A DNA stretch of 64,000 bases from Arenimonas oryziterrae DSM 21050 = YC6267 (GTDB taxonomy: Bacteria > Pseudomonadota > Gammaproteobacteria > Xanthomonadales > Xanthomonadaceae), in assembly GCF_000420545.1 (NCBI RefSeq), contig NZ_ATVD01000002.1, positions 62,001 through 126,000 of the forward strand. Reading direction: 5' to 3'. Shown piece after piece: positions 52,631 through 61,374 of the stretch (positions are counted from its first letter, which is position 1; each line of letters begins with the position of its first letter). Both the position numbers and the translations under genes were made by a program. The notes below the pieces were generated by a model. It saw only the letters and a program-made list of their open reading frames with translations, had not been told where the DNA came from and did no database searches.

Positions 52631-53131
52631 ATGTCCAATAAGAAAGAAGCCAAGAATAGCGCAGGCACCCAGGGCAAGACGATTGCCCTGAACCGCTCTG
52701 CGCGCCACGATTACCACCTCGAAGCCCGCTACGAGGCCGGTATCTCCCTGCTTGGCTGGGAGCTCAAGTCCATCCGCGCCGGCCGCCTGAACATGGGCGA
52801 CAGCTATGCGATGGTCAAGAACGGCGAAATCTTCCTGTTCGGCTCGCAGATCACGCCGCTGATCTCGGCCTCGACCCACGTCATCCCCGACGATCGCCGT
52901 ACGCGCAAGCTGCTGCTGCACCGTGCGGAGATCGATCGCCTGGTCGGCAAGGTCGAACGCGAGGGCTACACCTTGATTCCCACCGCCTGCTACTGGTCGG
53001 GTAACAAGGTCAAGCTCGAACTGGCGCTGGCGAAAGGCAAGCAGGCCCACGACAAGCGCCAGGCCAGCAAGGACGCGGACTGGGCGCGCGAGAAGCAGCG
53101 CACGATGCGTCGACACAACAAGAACGCCTGA
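52631..53131 (+). CDS. smpB: SsrA-binding protein SmpB
   Basis: 166-residue partner of tmRNA in ribosome rescue. OB-like core with ARHDYHLEARYEAGISLLG, WELKSIRAGRLNMGDSYAM, and the basic C-terminal tail DWAREKQRTMRRHNKNA that enters the vacant mRNA channel. AAGGAA lies six bases before the ATG. Its RNA partner ssrA is 4.9 kb downstream, separated by a four-gene operon. Confidence 0.98.
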   Translation: MSNKKEAKNSAGTQGKTIALNRSARHDYHLEARYEAGISLLGWELKSIRAGRLNMGDSYAMVKNGEIFLFGSQITPLISASTHVIPDDRRTRKLLLHRAEIDRLVGKVEREGYTLIPTACYWSGNKVKLELALAKGKQAHDKRQASKDADWAREKQRTMRRHNKNA

Positions 53132-53161
53132 CGCCGGGCCAAAAATCATGCGGGCAGCCCA

Positions 53162-54226
53162 ATGAAACCTTCGCTCCCCGTTCTCGTCCTGCGCTGGAGT
53201 TTCCGTTTGCTGCTCGGCGGCGTGATGGTGATCGCGCTCGTGCTGCTCGCTTTCCGCTGGCAGGCGCAGCAGCGCGAAGTGCGTGATCCGCAGACATCCG
53301 CGCCGGCAACTGGGCGTTTCGTCGATGCCGCCGGCCTGCATTTTTTTGTCCAGGAAGCAGGACCGATGCAGGGTCCGGTCGTCGTTTTCATCCATGGCAC
53401 CGGTGCCTGGAGCGAGACCTGGCGCGAATCGATGCAGACCGCCGCGGCGGCCGGATATCGCGCCATCGCGCTGGACGTACCGCCTTTCGGCTATTCGCAA
53501 CGTCCCGCCGACGGCGACTATTCGCGTGCGGCGCAGGCCCGTCGAATCTTGGGCGTGCTCGATGCGCTGAAGATCGACCGGGTCGTGCTCGTCGGTCATT
53601 CGTTCGGCGCCGGGGCCACGATGGAGACGGTCTTCCTTGCTCCCGAACGCGTGCGCGGTGTCGTGCTGGTCGACGCGGCGCTGGCACTGACGCGCGATCC
53701 CGACGCCGATCCCGAGGGCCCGTGGGCCTTGCGCGCCTTTCTCGCCGCCGCCCCCGTACGCGATGCCGTGGTCGCCAGTCTGCTGACCAATCCCGACTAC
53801 ACCGAGCGTCTGCTGCAGAAATTCGTCCACGACCCGCAGGCCGCCACGCCGGCGCGCGTGCAGGTCTACCAGCAGCCGCTCGCGCTCGCAGGAAGCACCT
53901 CCGCGGTGGGCCAATGGCTGCCGACGCTGCTGCTCCCGGGACCGCCATCGAAGAGCGACGACGCAGACGCCTACCGGACACTGCGCCTGCCGGTGCGATT
54001 GATCTGGGGCGACCAAGACGACATCACGCCGCTCGCACAGGGCCGGCAGATCGAGACCCTCGTGCCCGGCGCGCATCTGGTGTCGCTGCCCGGGATCGGA
54101 CATATTCCGCAGATCGAAGACAGCCCGCATTTCCGCACCGTCCTGCTCGAACAGCTGCAAGCGATCGTGCCGTCCGCCCCTCCCGCCAGCGAGCCCCTGC
54201 CGACCGATGCCCTCCTCTCTCATTGA
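53162..54226 (+). CDS. Membrane-anchored alpha/beta hydrolase
   Basis: 354 residues. An N-terminal hydrophobic helix (about 10-31) after a basic start suggests a signal anchor with the enzyme outside the cytoplasm. The alpha/beta-hydrolase fold has oxyanion segment HGTGAWSETW (79-88), nucleophile Ser147 in GHSFGAG, acid Asp286 in WGDQDDITP and His314 in GIGHIPQIED, so the triad is complete. The cap region (about 185-260) is Ala/Pro-rich. Substrate unknown. It begins 30 bp after smpB and overlaps the DUF805 gene by 20 bp, forming the first gene of the operon that separates smpB from ssrA. Confidence 0.85.
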   Translation: MKPSLPVLVLRWSFRLLLGGVMVIALVLLAFRWQAQQREVRDPQTSAPATGRFVDAAGLHFFVQEAGPMQGPVVVFIHGTGAWSETWRESMQTAAAAGYRAIALDVPPFGYSQRPADGDYSRAAQARRILGVLDALKIDRVVLVGHSFGAGATMETVFLAPERVRGVVLVDAALALTRDPDADPEGPWALRAFLAAAPVRDAVVASLLTNPDYTERLLQKFVHDPQAATPARVQVYQQPLALAGSTSAVGQWLPTLLLPGPPSKSDDADAYRTLRLPVRLIWGDQDDITPLAQGRQIETLVPGAHLVSLPGIGHIPQIEDSPHFRTVLLEQLQAIVPSAPPASEPLPTDALLSH

Positions 54227-54572
54227 TGCTCTGGCTTCGTTGCGCGGCCGGCTTCCGCGGCTGCGTTTCTGCTACCTGTTCCTGGCCCTGATCGCAGCGT
54301 TCGTGCTGTCGTTCGTCGGACTCGAGAATCTGCTCGGACGCGCCAGCACGTGGGTCCTGTATCCGCCGGCGTTCTGGATCGCCCTGTCGTTGACGACGCG
54401 GCGCTACCACGACCTCAACAAGCGCGCGTGGTGGCTGCTCGTGCTGCTCATTCCCCTGCTCGGTCCGATCTGGGTGGGCTTCGAGCTGTTCCTGCGTCGC
54501 GGCACGACCGGCGACAACCGCTTCGGTCGCGACCGCCTGTCCGCCGTGCACGACTATCACGTGGTCAAGTGA
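54207..54572 (+). CDS. DUF805-type small membrane protein
   Basis: 121 residues. Two or three hydrophobic helices (about 20-42, 47-63, 72-93) flank the DUF805 core TRRYHDLNKRAWWLLVLLIP, and the domain ends with RRGTTGDNRFGRD. DUF805 proteins (e.g. YhaH-like) are widespread inner-membrane proteins without known activity. The ATG is inside the end of the hydrolase gene (20-bp overlap) and the next gene starts 10 bp after its stop, so it is embedded in the operon. Confidence 0.85.
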   Translation: MPSSLIDALASLRGRLPRLRFCYLFLALIAAFVLSFVGLENLLGRASTWVLYPPAFWIALSLTTRRYHDLNKRAWWLLVLLIPLLGPIWVGFELFLRRGTTGDNRFGRDRLSAVHDYHVVK

Positions 54573-54582
54573 GACGCGGACC

Positions 54583-56805
54583 ATGGACAGCAATCCGCTG
54601 ATCATCAACGACGTCACCGGCCTCAACCCGGTGGCGGTCTGGGCCATCGTCAAACCGGCCTCCGTCGCCGAAGTGCAGGAAGCAGTACGGCGTGCGTCCG
54701 GACCGATCTCGATCGGCGGCGGACGTTTCAGCATGGGCGGACAGACCGCGAGCCCGGGCAGCCTGCATGTCGACATGCGCGGCATGAACCGCATCGTCGC
54801 GTTCTGGCCGATGGAACGACGCATTCGCGTGCAGGCCGGCATTCGCTGGTGCGACATCCAGAAGTTCGTCGATCCGCACGATCTTTCGGTCAAGATCATG
54901 CAGAGCTACGCCAATTTCACTGTCGGCGGCTCGCTGGGCGTGAATGTGCATGGCCGTTACATGGGCCTCGGCCCACTGATCCTGTCGGTGCGCGCGATCT
55001 CGCTGGTGTTGGCCAATGGCGAACGCGTCGAAGCCAGCCCGAGCGAAAACAGCGAGCTGTTCTACGGGGTGATCGGCGGCTACGGCGGCCTGGGCATCGT
55101 CGTGGAAGCCGAACTCGAGCTCGCCCCGAACGTACGCATGGAGCGCGTCTCGCAGAAGATGCCGGTCGGCGACTATCTCGCGCACTTCCGCAAATCCGTG
55201 CGCAATTCCTCCGACGCGATTTACCACAACGCCGACATCTATCCGCCGCACTACGGCTCGGTGCGTTCGGTGACATGGCGCGAGACCGACAAACCGGTCA
55301 CCGAGCCACGCCGTTTGATGCCGGCCAAACCCGATTATCCGCTGGAAAAATATTTCCTCTGGGCGATGACCGAAACCCCCTGGGGCAAATGGCGTCGCGA
55401 ATTCCTCATCGACCCGCTGTTGTTCGCGACCGGCAAGGTCTGCTGGCGCAATTTCGAGGCCGGCTACAACGTCGCCGAGCTCGAGCCCGCCTCGCGCCGT
55501 TTCAGCACCTACGTGCTGCAGGAATACTTCGTTCCCTACGAGCGCTTCGACGAATTCGTGGCGAAGATGGCCGAGATCCTCCGCCGCCATCGCGTGAACA
55601 TGCTCAATATTTCCGTGCGGCATGCGGTCGCCGACCCGGGCTCGCTGATGGCCTGGGCACGCCAGGAGTGTTTTGCGTTCGTGCTCTATTACAAGCAGCG
55701 CACGCGCGCGAACGCCCGCCATCGCGTCGCCGTCTGGACGCGCGAGCTGATCGAAGCCGCGATAGCACTGGGCGGCAGCCACTACTTGCCGTATCAGGCG
55801 CATGCGACGTCCGAACAATTCCATCGCGCCTACCCGCGCGCGCACGAGCTGTTCGCGCTCAAGCGCCGCCTCGACCCCGATTTCCGTTTCCGCAACGTGA
55901 TCTGGGACCAGTATTACGCGCCGACATTGGCGCCGCAGGAAGACCGACCCATGGCGACGAACTCCGAGTTCCACACCGTCTACAACGACACCGCCGGGCA
56001 CGACGGTTTTTATCGCTTCCTGCAGAACGTGTACCGCTTGTATCCGGAGGACCGCTTCCACACGCTGATCAAGGACGCGGTGGGCCGGCATGGCGACGAC
56101 GAGAGCATCTATCGCGACCTGCAGACCCGGCTGCCGGGCATCAAGCCCTTCCTCGCCGACCTGTTCTATGCCCTGCCCTCGCTGAAAAAGCAGAAGCAGG
56201 AAATGACCCGGCAGACCCTGGCGATCCTCGGCACGCGGCGGAAGTTCGACGGCTACGTGGAAATCGGCACGACCGGCCGCTACGTGAAGAGCCTGCGCAA
56301 GGCGTTGGATCTGAGCGGCCCGGTGCATCTGGTCAACGATGTCGCCCCGGGCAATTCGCCAGTCGACCTCATCGAGCGCGGACAACTGGGTCAGGCCGGC
56401 GCCTTCACGATGATGGACTACCGCGCGATTCCGGCCAGTGCTGTGCCCGATGCCAGCGCCGATCTGGTGACCTGCTACATCGGCCTGCATCATTGCCCGC
56501 CAGACACGCTGGAGGAGTTCGCCGCCTCGATCGCGCGCATGCTGCGCCCCAGCGGTGTCTTCATCCTGCGCGACCACGAAGTCGATTCGCCGCAGATGAA
56601 TGCCTTCGTGTCGCTGGCACACACCGTCTTCAATGCCGGCCTCGGCGTGCCCTGGGAAACCAATCAGGCCGAGCTGCGTTTCTTCGCGCCGCTGCAGCGC
56701 TGGATCGACCTGCTGGCGCGGCATGGACTGCGCGACAGCGGTCAGCGCCTGCTGCAGGCCAACGATCCTTCGATCAATACGCTGCTGATGTTCACCAAGG
56801 ACTGA
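54583..56805 (+). CDS. FAD-binding oxidoreductase fused to SAM-dependent methyltransferase
   Basis: 740 residues with two enzymes in one chain. Residues about 15-185 form a PCMH/VAO-type FAD domain: ISIGGGRFSMGGQTAS at 42-57, NFTVGGSLGVNVHGR at 111-125, and VIGGYGGLGIVVEAELEL near 163-180. The usual site of covalent FAD attachment (His in GHS-type loops) is not His here, so FAD is probably non-covalent. A substrate domain follows to about 460, with RRLDPDFRFRN. From about 535 a class I methyltransferase begins, with motif I VEIGTTGRY at 559-567, an IGLHHCP segment and LRPSGVFILRDHE. There is no signal peptide. Substrate and product are unknown; fusion implies consecutive oxidation and methylation of one molecule. 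Confidence 0.85.
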   Translation: MDSNPLIINDVTGLNPVAVWAIVKPASVAEVQEAVRRASGPISIGGGRFSMGGQTASPGSLHVDMRGMNRIVAFWPMERRIRVQAGIRWCDIQKFVDPHDLSVKIMQSYANFTVGGSLGVNVHGRYMGLGPLILSVRAISLVLANGERVEASPSENSELFYGVIGGYGGLGIVVEAELELAPNVRMERVSQKMPVGDYLAHFRKSVRNSSDAIYHNADIYPPHYGSVRSVTWRETDKPVTEPRRLMPAKPDYPLEKYFLWAMTETPWGKWRREFLIDPLLFATGKVCWRNFEAGYNVAELEPASRRFSTYVLQEYFVPYERFDEFVAKMAEILRRHRVNMLNISVRHAVADPGSLMAWARQECFAFVLYYKQRTRANARHRVAVWTRELIEAAIALGGSHYLPYQAHATSEQFHRAYPRAHELFALKRRLDPDFRFRNVIWDQYYAPTLAPQEDRPMATNSEFHTVYNDTAGHDGFYRFLQNVYRLYPEDRFHTLIKDAVGRHGDDESIYRDLQTRLPGIKPFLADLFYALPSLKKQKQEMTRQTLAILGTRRKFDGYVEIGTTGRYVKSLRKALDLSGPVHLVNDVAPGNSPVDLIERGQLGQAGAFTMMDYRAIPASAVPDASADLVTCYIGLHHCPPDTLEEFAASIARMLRPSGVFILRDHEVDSPQMNAFVSLAHTVFNAGLGVPWETNQAELRFFAPLQRWIDLLARHGLRDSGQRLLQANDPSINTLLMFTKD

Positions 56806-56806
56806 C

Positions 56807-57871
56807 ATGGCGACTTCGATGCGCGCGCGGCGGTGGTCGGCGGCTTGGCTGCTGCTGTGTCTGGCCGGTTTCGCCGCCGCGGTCGTGCCGGCGGCGCCGA
56901 CCCAGATGACGCCGGAAGCGGACCGGCGCGGTGAAGACCAGACCTTTCTCACCTATCCCGAGTGGTTTCTGGTCTACAGCCCGGACGAATTCGCCGATTT
57001 CCTGAAAGCCGGGAAGAATCCCAGCGAGTTTCCCTTCATCGGCCATCTGCAGCAGTTCTGGCAGGCCTACGGCGCGATCTATCGCATCACCGGCGACCGC
57101 TATGACTTCAATGGCGAATACCACACGATGATCGGCGTGATCGGCGTGAGCACGACGCTCGAATACGGACTGAAATCCGCCTACGAAACCGTGGTCGGTC
57201 GGGTGACCGAACTCACGGCGGGCGGCACCGCGACCGAAGAAGACCGCCTGGCGGCGGAAGTCGCGCGCGACTACGTGGATTTTCTCGCGCTGCAGCCCTG
57301 GTACGAATACGATTTTTCCGCGCGGCTCAAGCAGGTATGGACGGACACGCCCTGGGTCGGCCCGAACATGCTGCGCAAATGGGAACGCAAGTACTGGCTG
57401 ACCAGCGAGTACGCCGGCAAGGCGATCTACGGCTGGCTGATCGGCAAGGCGACGCGGTCGAGCTTCGAGAAACCGAAACTGGAGACCGTGGCTTGGGTGG
57501 ACGGTTTTCCCGCGGAGTCGACCGGCCTGCCATCGGACCTGCGCGTGATTCGCCGCGAAGCTGACGGACATGCGCTGATCGCACTGCCGCGCTATGCACC
57601 ATTCACGACCGAATCGCTGCAGCTGGCGCAACGCGGCGTACGTTTCGAGGAGATCGCCGGTAATCGGGACGCCATCCTGATCACGGTCATCGCCCCGGGC
57701 GACTGGCGCGCGCCGGACCGCTGGCCGTATCGGGTGCTGTTCCTGCAGCCGGTGCTCACGCGCGCCAACCAGCAACGTCTGGCGGTGGTGGTGCCGGTGA
57801 AGGATCTGGACCGCGCCTTGCTGGAACTGGCGCAGGCGCCGTATCGCCTCGAGCACGTCTACGACTATTGA
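56807..57871 (+). CDS. Exported or membrane-anchored protein of unknown family
   Basis: 354 residues starting one base after the preceding stop. A signal peptide or anchor covers about 1-30 (RWSAAWLLLCLAGFAAAV). The rest is soluble and rich in aromatic residues: TFLTYPEWFLVYSPDEFADF, FIGHLQQFWQAYGAIYRIT, GEYHTMIGVIGVSTTLEYG, LRKWERKYWLTSEYAGKAIY. The last third (about 225-354) looks like a separate alpha/beta domain. I have no named domain for it, nor a catalytic motif. Tight coupling to the oxidoreductase-methyltransferase suggests a shared pathway, with this protein acting outside the cytoplasm. Confidence 0.8.
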   Translation: MATSMRARRWSAAWLLLCLAGFAAAVVPAAPTQMTPEADRRGEDQTFLTYPEWFLVYSPDEFADFLKAGKNPSEFPFIGHLQQFWQAYGAIYRITGDRYDFNGEYHTMIGVIGVSTTLEYGLKSAYETVVGRVTELTAGGTATEEDRLAAEVARDYVDFLALQPWYEYDFSARLKQVWTDTPWVGPNMLRKWERKYWLTSEYAGKAIYGWLIGKATRSSFEKPKLETVAWVDGFPAESTGLPSDLRVIRREADGHALIALPRYAPFTTESLQLAQRGVRFEEIAGNRDAILITVIAPGDWRAPDRWPYRVLFLQPVLTRANQQRLAVVVPVKDLDRALLELAQAPYRLEHVYDY

Positions 57872-57934
57872 GGGACAGCTGACTCCCTCTCCCGCTTGCG
57901 GGACGACCGAAGGGAGTGCAGAGCTGAGGGCCAG

Positions 57935-57952
57935 GGTGAGGGCAGCCTCACC
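57935..57952. repeat. Hairpin before the ssrA promoter
   Basis: Perfect 7-bp stem GGTGAGG / CCTCACC with loop GCAG, 64 bp after the operon's last stop. Only a TT follows, so it would be a weak terminator; the preceding CTCCCTCTCCC / GGGAGTG sequence is reminiscent of dispersed intergenic repeats in Xanthomonadales. Confidence 0.55.
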
Positions 57953-57981
57953 TTGATGTACCCGCGCTCCACCCCCATACT
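57953..57981 (+). promoter_or_regulatory. Sigma-70-type promoter for ssrA
   Basis: TTGATG (57953-57958), 17-base spacer, CATACT (57976-57981), four of six matches in each hexamer. A start near 57989 would leave a leader of about 28 nt to be trimmed from the 5' end of tmRNA by RNase P. Confidence 0.5.
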
Positions 57982-58016
57982 GTGATCGTCGGTAGATTCA
58001 AGATTTCCGTGTTTCC

Positions 58017-58369
58017 GGGGGTGTCCTGGCTTCGACGGGGGTCGCAAAGTCGACTGGCGCATGCCGAGGGGGCGACTGTCCTCGTTAATCCAGTAGCAAA
58101 CTTTAGTTGCCAACGACGACAACTACGCTCTCGCCGCTTAAGGCGTAAGCCCCGAACCCACTTGTGCCCGTGCTCGTGGATGTAGGGTCATTATCACGGA
58201 ACCAGCTGGGGCGGCGACCCGCCAACCCCAGCCTAAACTTAGCGGGTGTGTCTGACGGTGTGCTTCGCACGTCGTGTTTCCGTCAGGCGAGATCTAACGG
58301 CGAGCTAAGCATGTAGTGCCGGAGATGGAGTGCTCTCGGACGCGGGTTCAACTCCCGCCACCTCCACCA
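58017..58369 (+). ncRNA. ssrA: tmRNA (SsrA)
   Basis: 353-nt transfer-messenger RNA for trans-translation with SmpB. The tRNA-like ends pair as GGGGGTG (58017-58023) with CACCTCC (58359-58365), followed by A and encoded CCA; the T-arm is GCGGGTTCAACTCCCGC. The tag frame begins with the resume codon GCC at 58109 and ends with TAA at 58139-58141, giving the 10-residue tag A-N-D-D-N-Y-A-L-A-A, one residue (Asp for Glu) different from the E. coli tag. The hydrophobic end LAA is the ClpXP/ClpAP degron. The terminator follows 11 bp later. Confidence 0.97.
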
Positions 58370-58409
58370 ACAAAGACGAAGGGCCGCGCAAGCGGCCCTT
58401 TTTCTTTGC
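58340..58409 (+). repeat. Candidate left boundary repeat at the ssrA 3' end
   Basis: The ssrA 3' end plus terminator. A degenerate copy lies at 59551-59616: ACGCGG, AACT and CCCGCC blocks in the same order as the ssrA T-arm and acceptor strand, followed by the identical 34-base terminator. The layout is that of attL/attR flanking a small insertion at a tmRNA gene, a well-known integration site. The upstream blocks are short, so only the terminator identity is firm. Confidence 0.4.
58376..58409 (+). terminator. Terminator of ssrA, copy 1 of a repeated terminator
   Basis: Stem GGGCCGC / GCGGCCC with loop GCAA (58381-58398), then TTTTTCTTT. The 34 bases 58376-58409 are identical to 59583-59616, and the hairpin core recurs at 61404-61426. 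Confidence 0.93.
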
Positions 58410-58499
58410 CTCTGGATATCGGCGTCCCTATCGAGACGATGTAGCCGCAAAAAATGTACCCTGATCCTGGTACGAACCAGCTTAAGTTCAGGAAGAAGC

Positions 58500-59616: not shown

Positions 59617-59745
59617 ACGTGGAAAACCCCGGACGCTTGCTGGCATTCGGCGCACCTTCGTCCCAAACCGGTTGCTGTCGGTGCGCAGGCCATCTAGGTT
59701 TCCTTGTTTGCGTTGCGCCCAACCAACCACTCGGGGAAAACCAAG

Positions 59746-61374
59746 ATGAAAAAGACGCTGCCTTGCCTGCCGCTGCTGCTCGCGGCTTTCGCCGCCAACG
59801 CCGTGTACGCGCCGCCGACCCTGGCCTGCCGGGACGGCGGCGGCACCGAACCGACGATGGTCAAACGCTATGTCGTGCGCTTCCGGGCGCCGTCGACGAG
59901 CGCCACGACCGATGCCCAGCAAGCGCAGACCCTGTCCCAGTTCACCGCCGGCTTCGGCGCCCGGGCGCAATGGGTGCGCCGCACCGCGGGCGGCGCGAAC
60001 GTGATCCGTTTCCTCGGCAGCGATCCGGACGCCGTCGCCCAGGCCCTCGAGCAGCTCGCACAGCGCTCCGACGTCGCCTACGTCGTCGAAGACAAGCTCG
60101 TGTCCGCGGCCGTTGTACCCAATGACCCGATGTATTCGCAGCTGTGGGGCCTGACCGCCACGCCCTCGGGCATTTCGGCGCCGAGTGCCTGGAATCGCGG
60201 CACCGGCACCGGCGCGGTAATCGCGGTGCTGGACACGGGTATCACCGCGCATCCCGATCTCAACGCCAACCGGCTCGCGGGCGGTTACGACTTCGTGTCG
60301 ACACAGACATCGGGCAATGACGGCAACGGTCGCGATGCCGATGCGAGCGATCCGGGCGACTACTACACCCTCAACTGCGAAATGATTTCCTCGTCCTGGC
60401 ATGGCACGCATGTCTCGGGCACGGCGGCCGCCGTCGGCAACAACGCCATCGGCGTGGTCGGTGTCGCCTACGGCGCGAAGATCCTGCCCGTGCGCGTCCT
60501 GGGCGGCGGTGGCGGAACCATGGCCGATGTGGCCGACGGCATCATCTGGGCCGCCGGCGGCGCCGTTCCCGGCGTTCCGCTCAATCCCACGCCGGCCACG
60601 GTCATCAACATGAGTCTGGCCGGGTTCTCCAGTTGCGGTCCGGTCGAGCAGGAAGCAATCGACTTCGCCATCAATGCCGGCATTCCGGTCGTGGTCGCGG
60701 CAGGCAACTGGAACACCGACGCGAGCCAGTTCAGCCCGGGCAATTGCAATGGCGTCATTACCGTCGGCGCAACGACCAACACCGGTGCGCGCGCGAGCTT
60801 CAGCAACTACGGCCCGCTGGTGGAAATTTCGGCCCCGGGCGTGGACATCCTGTCGACGCGCAACTCCGGCACGACCTACCCGGCGACGCCCACCTATTCG
60901 CTGCTCTCGGGCACCAGCATGGCGACGCCGCAGGTCGCTGGCGTGGTTGCGCTGATGCAGTCGATTTACCCGCGAACGCCGCGACAGATCACCCAGATCC
61001 TGCAGCTGACGGCCAAGCCTTTGCCGGTCGGCTGCGCCCCGGGTTGCGGCGCCGGCATCGTCAATGCCGATGCGGCCGCCACCGCAGCCGCGACGTGGCC
61101 GGCGGTGCTGTTCCATCCCGAGCGCACGTCGGCCTGCAGTTCGTCCGTGGTGATGTACACCACGAACAACACCTCGGTCGATCCCGATGACGCGATCGTG
61201 AGCGTGCTTTGGGACTACGGCGACGGCCGCACCTCGACCGACTGGTCGCCAACAATCAAGTACCCCAATGCCTCACCGAACACGCGTCGTATCACCCTGA
61301 CGGTCACCGATGCGGCCGGCCACTCCTTCAGCGATGCGATCGATGTGGACACCCATTTCAGCTGCACGCTCTAG
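59746..61374 (+). CDS. Secreted subtilisin-like (S8) serine protease with PKD-type domain
   Basis: 542 residues. Signal peptide (about 1-22), inhibitor-I9-like propeptide (about 38-125), then the S8 catalytic domain with Asp163 (VLDTGITAHPDL), His219 (WHGTHVSG), oxyanion Asn321 (VAAGN) and Ser391 (SGTSMATPQVAG). Six or more cysteines suggest disulfides. After about 455 comes a beta-sandwich of PKD type (VLWDYGDGRTSTDW, TLTVTDAAGHSF). It is likely secreted by Sec and type II secretion; in Xanthomonadales such extracellular proteases are classic outputs of DSF/Rpf control, though no regulatory link is visible here. It is a single gene, with identical terminators on both sides. Confidence 0.95.
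   Translation: MKKTLPCLPLLLAAFAANAVYAPPTLACRDGGGTEPTMVKRYVVRFRAPSTSATTDAQQAQTLSQFTAGFGARAQWVRRTAGGANVIRFLGSDPDAVAQALEQLAQRSDVAYVVEDKLVSAAVVPNDPMYSQLWGLTATPSGISAPSAWNRGTGTGAVIAVLDTGITAHPDLNANRLAGGYDFVSTQTSGNDGNGRDADASDPGDYYTLNCEMISSSWHGTHVSGTAAAVGNNAIGVVGVAYGAKILPVRVLGGGGGTMADVADGIIWAAGGAVPGVPLNPTPATVINMSLAGFSSCGPVEQEAIDFAINAGIPVVVAAGNWNTDASQFSPGNCNGVITVGATTNTGARASFSNYGPLVEISAPGVDILSTRNSGTTYPATPTYSLLSGTSMATPQVAGVVALMQSIYPRTPRQITQILQLTAKPLPVGCAPGCGAGIVNADAAATAAATWPAVLFHPERTSACSSSVVMYTTNNTSVDPDDAIVSVLWDYGDGRTSTDWSPTIKYPNASPNTRRITLTVTDAAGHSFSDAIDVDTHFSCTL

Follow-up and report, generated by a model that had tools for sequence, protein, structure and literature searches.

In mycobacteria, the 10-methyl stearic acid operon encodes an FAD-binding oxidoreductase, BfaA, and a SAM methyltransferase, BfaB (PMC5660069, PMC7791843). 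The furan fatty acid set comprises a methyltransferase, a desaturase and an oxygenase, UfaM, UfaD and UfaO, and combines methylation with flavin-linked desaturation on phospholipid chains; UfaD is described as an NAD-FAD-binding protein like phytoene desaturases (PMC7380195). Since both systems act on membrane lipid chains according to the cited passages, they are, by analogy, the best functional match to the locus reported here, in which an FAD-binding oxidoreductase domain (F) and a methyltransferase-fold domain (M) are encoded in a single operon as in the case of BfaA and BfaB. Two further points of reference are DprE1 (decaprenylphosphoryl-ribose oxidase), a FAD_binding_4-type sequence relative of F with an outer location in the cited passages of PMC9670723, and the class I methyltransferases of the Coq5/UbiE type, which share the fold of M. 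Among openly licensed papers (CC0, CC BY, CC BY-SA), none describing the present gene set was found, in agreement with the initial annotation, which had known of no described pathway with this set. The same body of literature gave no paper on an exported, periplasmic, secreted or twin-arginine methyltransferase.

The locus was analysed in a window of 64,000 nucleotides, this being the whole stretch of DNA under study. Four genes on the + strand lie between smpB (52631-53131, +) and ssrA, which encodes the tmRNA (58017-58369, +). Gene A (53162-54226) encodes an alpha/beta hydrolase with a hydrophobic N-terminus, assigned by ORF, Pfam (Abhydrolase_1, 4e-28) and hydropathy; the residues S147, D286 and H314 are present and stand in what we take to be the usual alpha/beta hydrolase motifs. 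Gene B (54207-54572) encodes a small membrane protein, assigned by ORF and Pfam to DUF805 (3e-18; 66.6 bits against a gathering score of 25.7 bits). Gene C (54583-56805) encodes a FAD_binding_4 oxidoreductase of the VAO superfamily (F, about residues 1-448; 1e-19, 70.9 bits against a gathering score of 26.4 bits) fused to a class I methyltransferase-fold domain (M, about residues 455-740) that matches Methyltransf_11. Gene D (56807-57871) encodes a protein of an unnamed family with a signal-like N-terminus; one half of the protein is helical, the other alpha/beta. A and B overlap by 20 bp, and gaps of 10 bp and 1 bp separate B from C and C from D. ORFs and spacing confirmed the initial annotation of four tightly spaced genes between smpB and ssrA, and its assignments to a membrane-anchored alpha/beta hydrolase with full triad, a DUF805 protein and an FAD-oxidoreductase/methyltransferase fusion were borne out by the motifs and matches given above. 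Since homologues of each of the four proteins occur elsewhere, A, B, C and D are not chance ORFs.

A scan of positions 52900-58450 gave no sigma-70-like promoter site. The single long-stem terminator-like site lies 3' of ssrA, all other hits being short-stem, and on this basis the operon transcript may extend to smpB and ssrA as well. At 64.9%, the operon has the same G+C content as the window, so that composition gave no sign of recent transfer. Downstream of ssrA, the window contains an ORF (59704-61374) with presumably subtilase-like motifs.

Of the 26 congeners, 21 had smpB and ssrA hits on the same contig, and for these the distances between the two were computed by hand. They amounted to 88-664 bp in 19 of these 21 genomes, to about 2.75 kb in G026 (C12) and to about 3.8 kb in G014 (C193); in the window, the distance is 4.9 kb and is filled by the operon. 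The operon is thus an insertion in a variable smpB-ssrA gap, and, judging from G026 and G014, insertions at this spot appear to recur. Using a single-sequence query, D was found in 1/27 genomes of the genus, in 2/61 relatives overall and in 3/369 genomes of the class, the window genome being included each time. Within the genus, D is missing from 26/26 congeners searched, several of them incomplete, so that for D the absence from relatives, which the initial annotation had named as speaking against the set, applies there; outside the genus it does not hold. In the genus of L023, 4/81 genomes contained D, including two that had been known beforehand, and D loci were located on plasmids of Ruegeria and Tritonibacter (four D-bearing plasmid records, two of them fetched). 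A DNA-level search of E. coli genomes gave no match to D.

A scan across GTDB species genomes yielded 23 D loci, which belong to Gamma-, Beta- and Alphaproteobacteria, Bdellovibrionota (Halobacteriovoraceae) and Bacteroidota (Flavobacterium). Altogether, 45 D loci were read (the window, L005, L006, L010-L033 and L058-L075). Second copies were not counted (L002 and L008, of L012; L003 and L009, of L021; L004, of L010), and the 45 loci do not include G686, in which D is cut at the contig end with F and M alongside, or two further D-bearing genomes of the genus of L023. F was located within 2.2 kb of D in 43/45 loci from distant bacteria, so that adjacency of the two extends well outside the species; the exceptions are L066, where the 18 kb read contain no F, and L075, where D is a 50-residue fragment with no nearby F. 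In a sample of 398 Pseudomonadota genomes (F at E <= 1e-25; D by profile, 3 of 20 being partial or a fragment), D was present in 20 and F in 22 genomes, with both in 18, D only in 2, F only in 4 (G703, G816, G612 and G739) and neither in 374. The association of D and F gave a Fisher p of 2e-25, uncorrected for kinship. M at E <= 1e-10 was detected in 2/398 genomes, both with D. Five F relatives (L007, L098-L101) had neither D nor M in the stretch read, and each has a signal-like, anchored or RR N-terminus; our reading is that they represent a putative stand-alone branch of exported flavoenzymes. A Legionella lytica plasmid record showed no D beside F.

The arrangement of the window, an F-M fusion with a separate D, was found in 12 loci (the window, L010-L018, L021 and L028) and is referred to as the window type. 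L010 is a distant member, L021 and L028 are metagenome assemblies, F and M form two adjoining ORFs in L016, and M is read in two frames in L011. B is present in 8/12 window-type loci and gave no hit at E <= 1e-3 in D loci of other types. A lies inside the locus in five cases (the window, L011, L012, L014 and L015), and the gene order A-B-C-D is limited to the window and the Steroidobacter MAG L015. An F-D fusion with a separate M was found in 11 loci, the hosts being five Flavobacterium, Moraxellaceae, Halobacteriovoraceae, Chromatiales, Woeseiaceae, Zhongshania and one more gammaproteobacterial MAG. M adjoins F-D in 10/11 of these; in L030 the contig ends, and M is present in the assembly. 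None of the 11 F-D loci contains A or B, and a search at E <= 1e-30 detected an A homologue in 0/11 F-D genomes. F and D are encoded separately in 20 loci. A profile search for M, which covered two genomes and two plasmid records with this arrangement, was negative, and a nearby membrane protein was DUF4383-like in 4/4 cases tested, two of them above the cut-off. A homologues were identified in four separate-F loci (L063, L064, L072 and L074).

Comparison of these loci supports the single functional unit proposed initially and marks F and D as its core, which M joins in the window-type and F-D lineages. That F is fused to M in some lineages and to D in others is the clearest indication of a common reaction sequence for F, M and D. 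Given their joint occurrence and varying fusions in distant bacteria, these parts very likely share a single task at the cell envelope. The proposal that all four genes make up the unit stands for F and D, with M, and has to be narrowed for the other two: A (9/45 D loci; 40-50% identical homologues in eight loci besides the window) and B (8/45) are, judged by this distribution, accessories.

D had no match in Pfam or NCBIfam at E <= 0.1 and none among PDB sequences at E <= 10. A comparison of 24 D members with Pfam yielded isolated weak hits alone, the best at 0.0046. The structural model is confident (mean pLDDT 90), with six helices after the N-terminal one followed by the alpha/beta half, and gave no Foldseek match at E <= 0.001 in PDB and BFVD. 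Within the limits of these searches, the earlier description as an exported protein of no known family was upheld. Many charged residues are invariant, and the C-terminal end is D-Y or D-F in 24/24 aligned members. A protein without a recognised relative is thereby tied to an enzyme that constantly accompanies it and to a conserved gene neighbourhood, and the strains carrying it are listed, which opens its function to testing; laboratory isolates with the set include Lysobacter sp. CFH 32150, Andreprevotia chitinilytica and Flavobacterium hibernum. A virus-borne set was considered and rejected: 90 viral-contig stretches matched D patterns, none was a relative, and no BFVD fold match at E <= 0.001 was obtained. 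Anti-phage defence was rejected as well, 0/4 proteins having a PADLOC match at E <= 0.001.

Topology was predicted by hydropathy and motif (RR, or K/R before a hydrophobic segment), partly by eye. The pattern of a Tat leader is RR with a hydrophobic stretch behind it. Neither a signal nor an RR leader was detected in 11/12 window-type F-M proteins, and a signal- or anchor-like start was seen by eye in 9/12 window-type D proteins. The D starts of L016 and L017 are not clearly signal-like; D of L010 has no N-terminal hydrophobic stretch, and the N-terminal extension of its F-M appears hydrophobic by eye. Outside the window type, motif or hydropathy indicates export or anchoring of F in 35/35 readable proteins. 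F-D fusions carry an N-terminal hydrophobic segment after K/R in 10/11 cases (L030 is cut); separate F with D has an RR leader in 17/20 and a hydrophobic N-terminus in 3/20; F without D has one or the other in 5/5. Since no strong segment lies between F and D in the fusions, both domains should face outward. The separate M of the F-D loci starts with RR and a hydrophobic stretch in 10/10 readable proteins. The M leader set covered 19/23 window-type and F-D loci, with L010 (distant), L011 (two frames), L016 (split) and L030 (not on the locus) omitted. The envelope link suggested initially is supported by these predictions, and the cytosolic oxidation and methylation suggested along with it apply to the window type at most, given the anchored or exported F elsewhere and the RR leaders on M in the F-D loci.

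The F tree (n = 35) included 11/12 window-type proteins (without L010), 10/11 F-D proteins (L030 being cut), 9/20 separate F with D and the 5 without D. It placed the window type, including L021 and L028, in one clade (98/97). In the D tree, calculated from 43/45 D loci (the partial L074 and L075 omitted), D of L021 and L028 fell inside the F-D clade (99/100), with an anchor like that of the F-D proteins. From these two placements, an unsignalled F-M is combined in L021 and L028 with a D of the F-D lineage; an unsignalled F-M and an exported F and M would thus have changed places while D stayed the same. It is unusual for F-M and F-D fusions to alternate when the compartments predicted for them are opposite.

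The reading favoured here, held tentatively and from sequence comparison, is that the operon encodes a cell-envelope redox and modification module for a membrane-bound substrate, with D as partner. F, a VAO-type flavoenzyme whose nearest named relatives are DprE1 and the aldonolactone/alditol oxidases, would oxidise a membrane-bound, probably lipid-linked substrate. M would modify the same molecule, by methyl transfer in the window type; a Tat-leader M would perhaps perform other chemistry, with SAM as a bound cofactor. D, which in most cases carries a signal or anchor, would serve on the outer face as a partner specific to this module, binding the product or processing it. A would cleave an ester or similar bond by hydrolysis, and B, a small membrane protein, would keep the enzymes at the membrane or aid substrate crossing. 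The best hint at the position of the substrate is that the predicted side of the membrane for F varies with the lineage, yet the accompanying D belongs to the same family, which suggests a substrate in the bilayer, reachable from both faces. This substrate would probably be a lipid.

The model of M (pLDDT 91.6) had 981 PDB matches at E <= 0.001 in Foldseek, corresponding to the class I methyltransferase fold, with 4obw (Coq5 with SAM; TMq 0.51) as the best one. Methyltransf_11 was matched by 19/19 M domains; for the window M, the match (1e-6) covers profile positions 47-95 of 95 only and misses the half bearing the SAM motif. In contrast to the Coq5/UbiE type, motif I of M reads E-x-G-x-x-G-R-Y, which is invariant in 19/19 together with G-x-HH and RDH, and M of the F-D loci has a Tat-like leader. 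It is plausible that M uses SAM. The methylation proposed initially is likewise no more than plausible, E-x-G-x-x-G being conserved in all 19 M domains and the Pfam match of the window protein being partial. An acid after strand 2 at C586 is present in 7/9 fused and 3/10 separate M, or in 8/10 separate M with residue 585 allowed; the residue D at 612 is present in 8/9 fused and 3/10 separate proteins. Loss of SAM contacts in exported M was considered and is not claimed, since the difference at C586 vanishes once a one-residue shift is allowed. The Foldseek matches of M include 3ocj, a Bordetella parapertussis protein with a methyltransferase fold that is labelled 'possible exported protein', and an exported member of this fold may therefore have precedent. 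According to a bolder version, which is conceivable and rather unlikely, M of Flavobacterium, Woeseiaceae and others is Tat-exported with a bound cofactor and works outside the cytosol with F and the new-fold D, by extracytoplasmic SAM use or non-methylating chemistry, with the window type representing a return of this chemistry to the cytosol. Should a methyltransferase fold indeed be exported by the Tat pathway, the source of its cofactor would become a question in its own right.

Apart from the envelope module with a membrane-bound substrate, an acyl-chain modification like that of BfaA/BfaB was evaluated, in which M methylates an unsaturated lipid acyl chain, F reduces or oxidises the product, and D and A handle the modified lipid. 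Operons of an FAD-binding oxidoreductase and a SAM methyltransferase acting on acyl chains are known (PMC5660069, PMC7791843; for furan fatty acids PMC7380195), an engineered bfaA-B fusion gave the most efficient production in yeast according to the cited passages (PMC5660069, PMC7791843), and F and M are fused or neighbours in the present gene set. However, M is Methyltransf_11 in 19/19 proteins, with no cyclopropane-synthase-type model among the ten families listed at E <= 0.1, and Tat-like leaders on M of the F-D loci are ill-suited to enzymes using cytosolic SAM. This explanation is therefore regarded as unlikely. The systems were compared by description: the cited passages describe no counterpart of D, A or B for BfaA/BfaB (PMC5660069, PMC7791843), and no fusion and no D-like protein for UfaM/UfaD/UfaO (PMC7380195). 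Because M is of another model type and such counterparts are missing from these descriptions, the operon was not assigned to either system.

Sugar or polyprenyl-sugar chemistry is judged about equally doubtful. F would then act like DprE1 or a lactone/alditol oxidase on an outer-face glycan precursor, and D would be its partner or a second enzyme. TIGR01679, DprE1 and xylitol oxidase are among the best NCBIfam and PDB relatives of F, and DprE1 has a periplasmic location in the cited passages (PMC9670723). F lies far below the DprE1 family cut-off, though, with 90.5 bits against 500 (NF053785), and reached 90.8 bits against 292.25 for TIGR01679 (lactone oxidase type) and 19.2 bits against 23.1 for PF04030 (ALO); furthermore, neither a glycosyltransferase nor a second sugar reductase is among the Pfam matches of the four proteins. 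To our knowledge, DprE1 has no M or D partner.

A horizontally moving secondary-metabolite or detoxification cassette acting on an outside compound is improbable, since, for all the patchiness of D (1/27 in the genus, 2/61 relatives, 4/81 in the genus of L023), the Ruegeria and Tritonibacter plasmid loci and the location in the variable smpB-ssrA gap, the four genes include no transporter, integrase or resistance gene by Pfam and the operon has the G+C content of the window.

Similar small Cys-containing ORFs adjoin D in L032 (8991-9455), L033 (7542-7955) and L059 (6868-7368); the L033 copy had no Pfam match. On the Ruegeria pomeroyi megaplasmid, a short ORF just upstream of F (L005, 6740-6979) matches the C-terminal part of hydrolase A with 42% over 59 aa and looks like a remnant of this gene.
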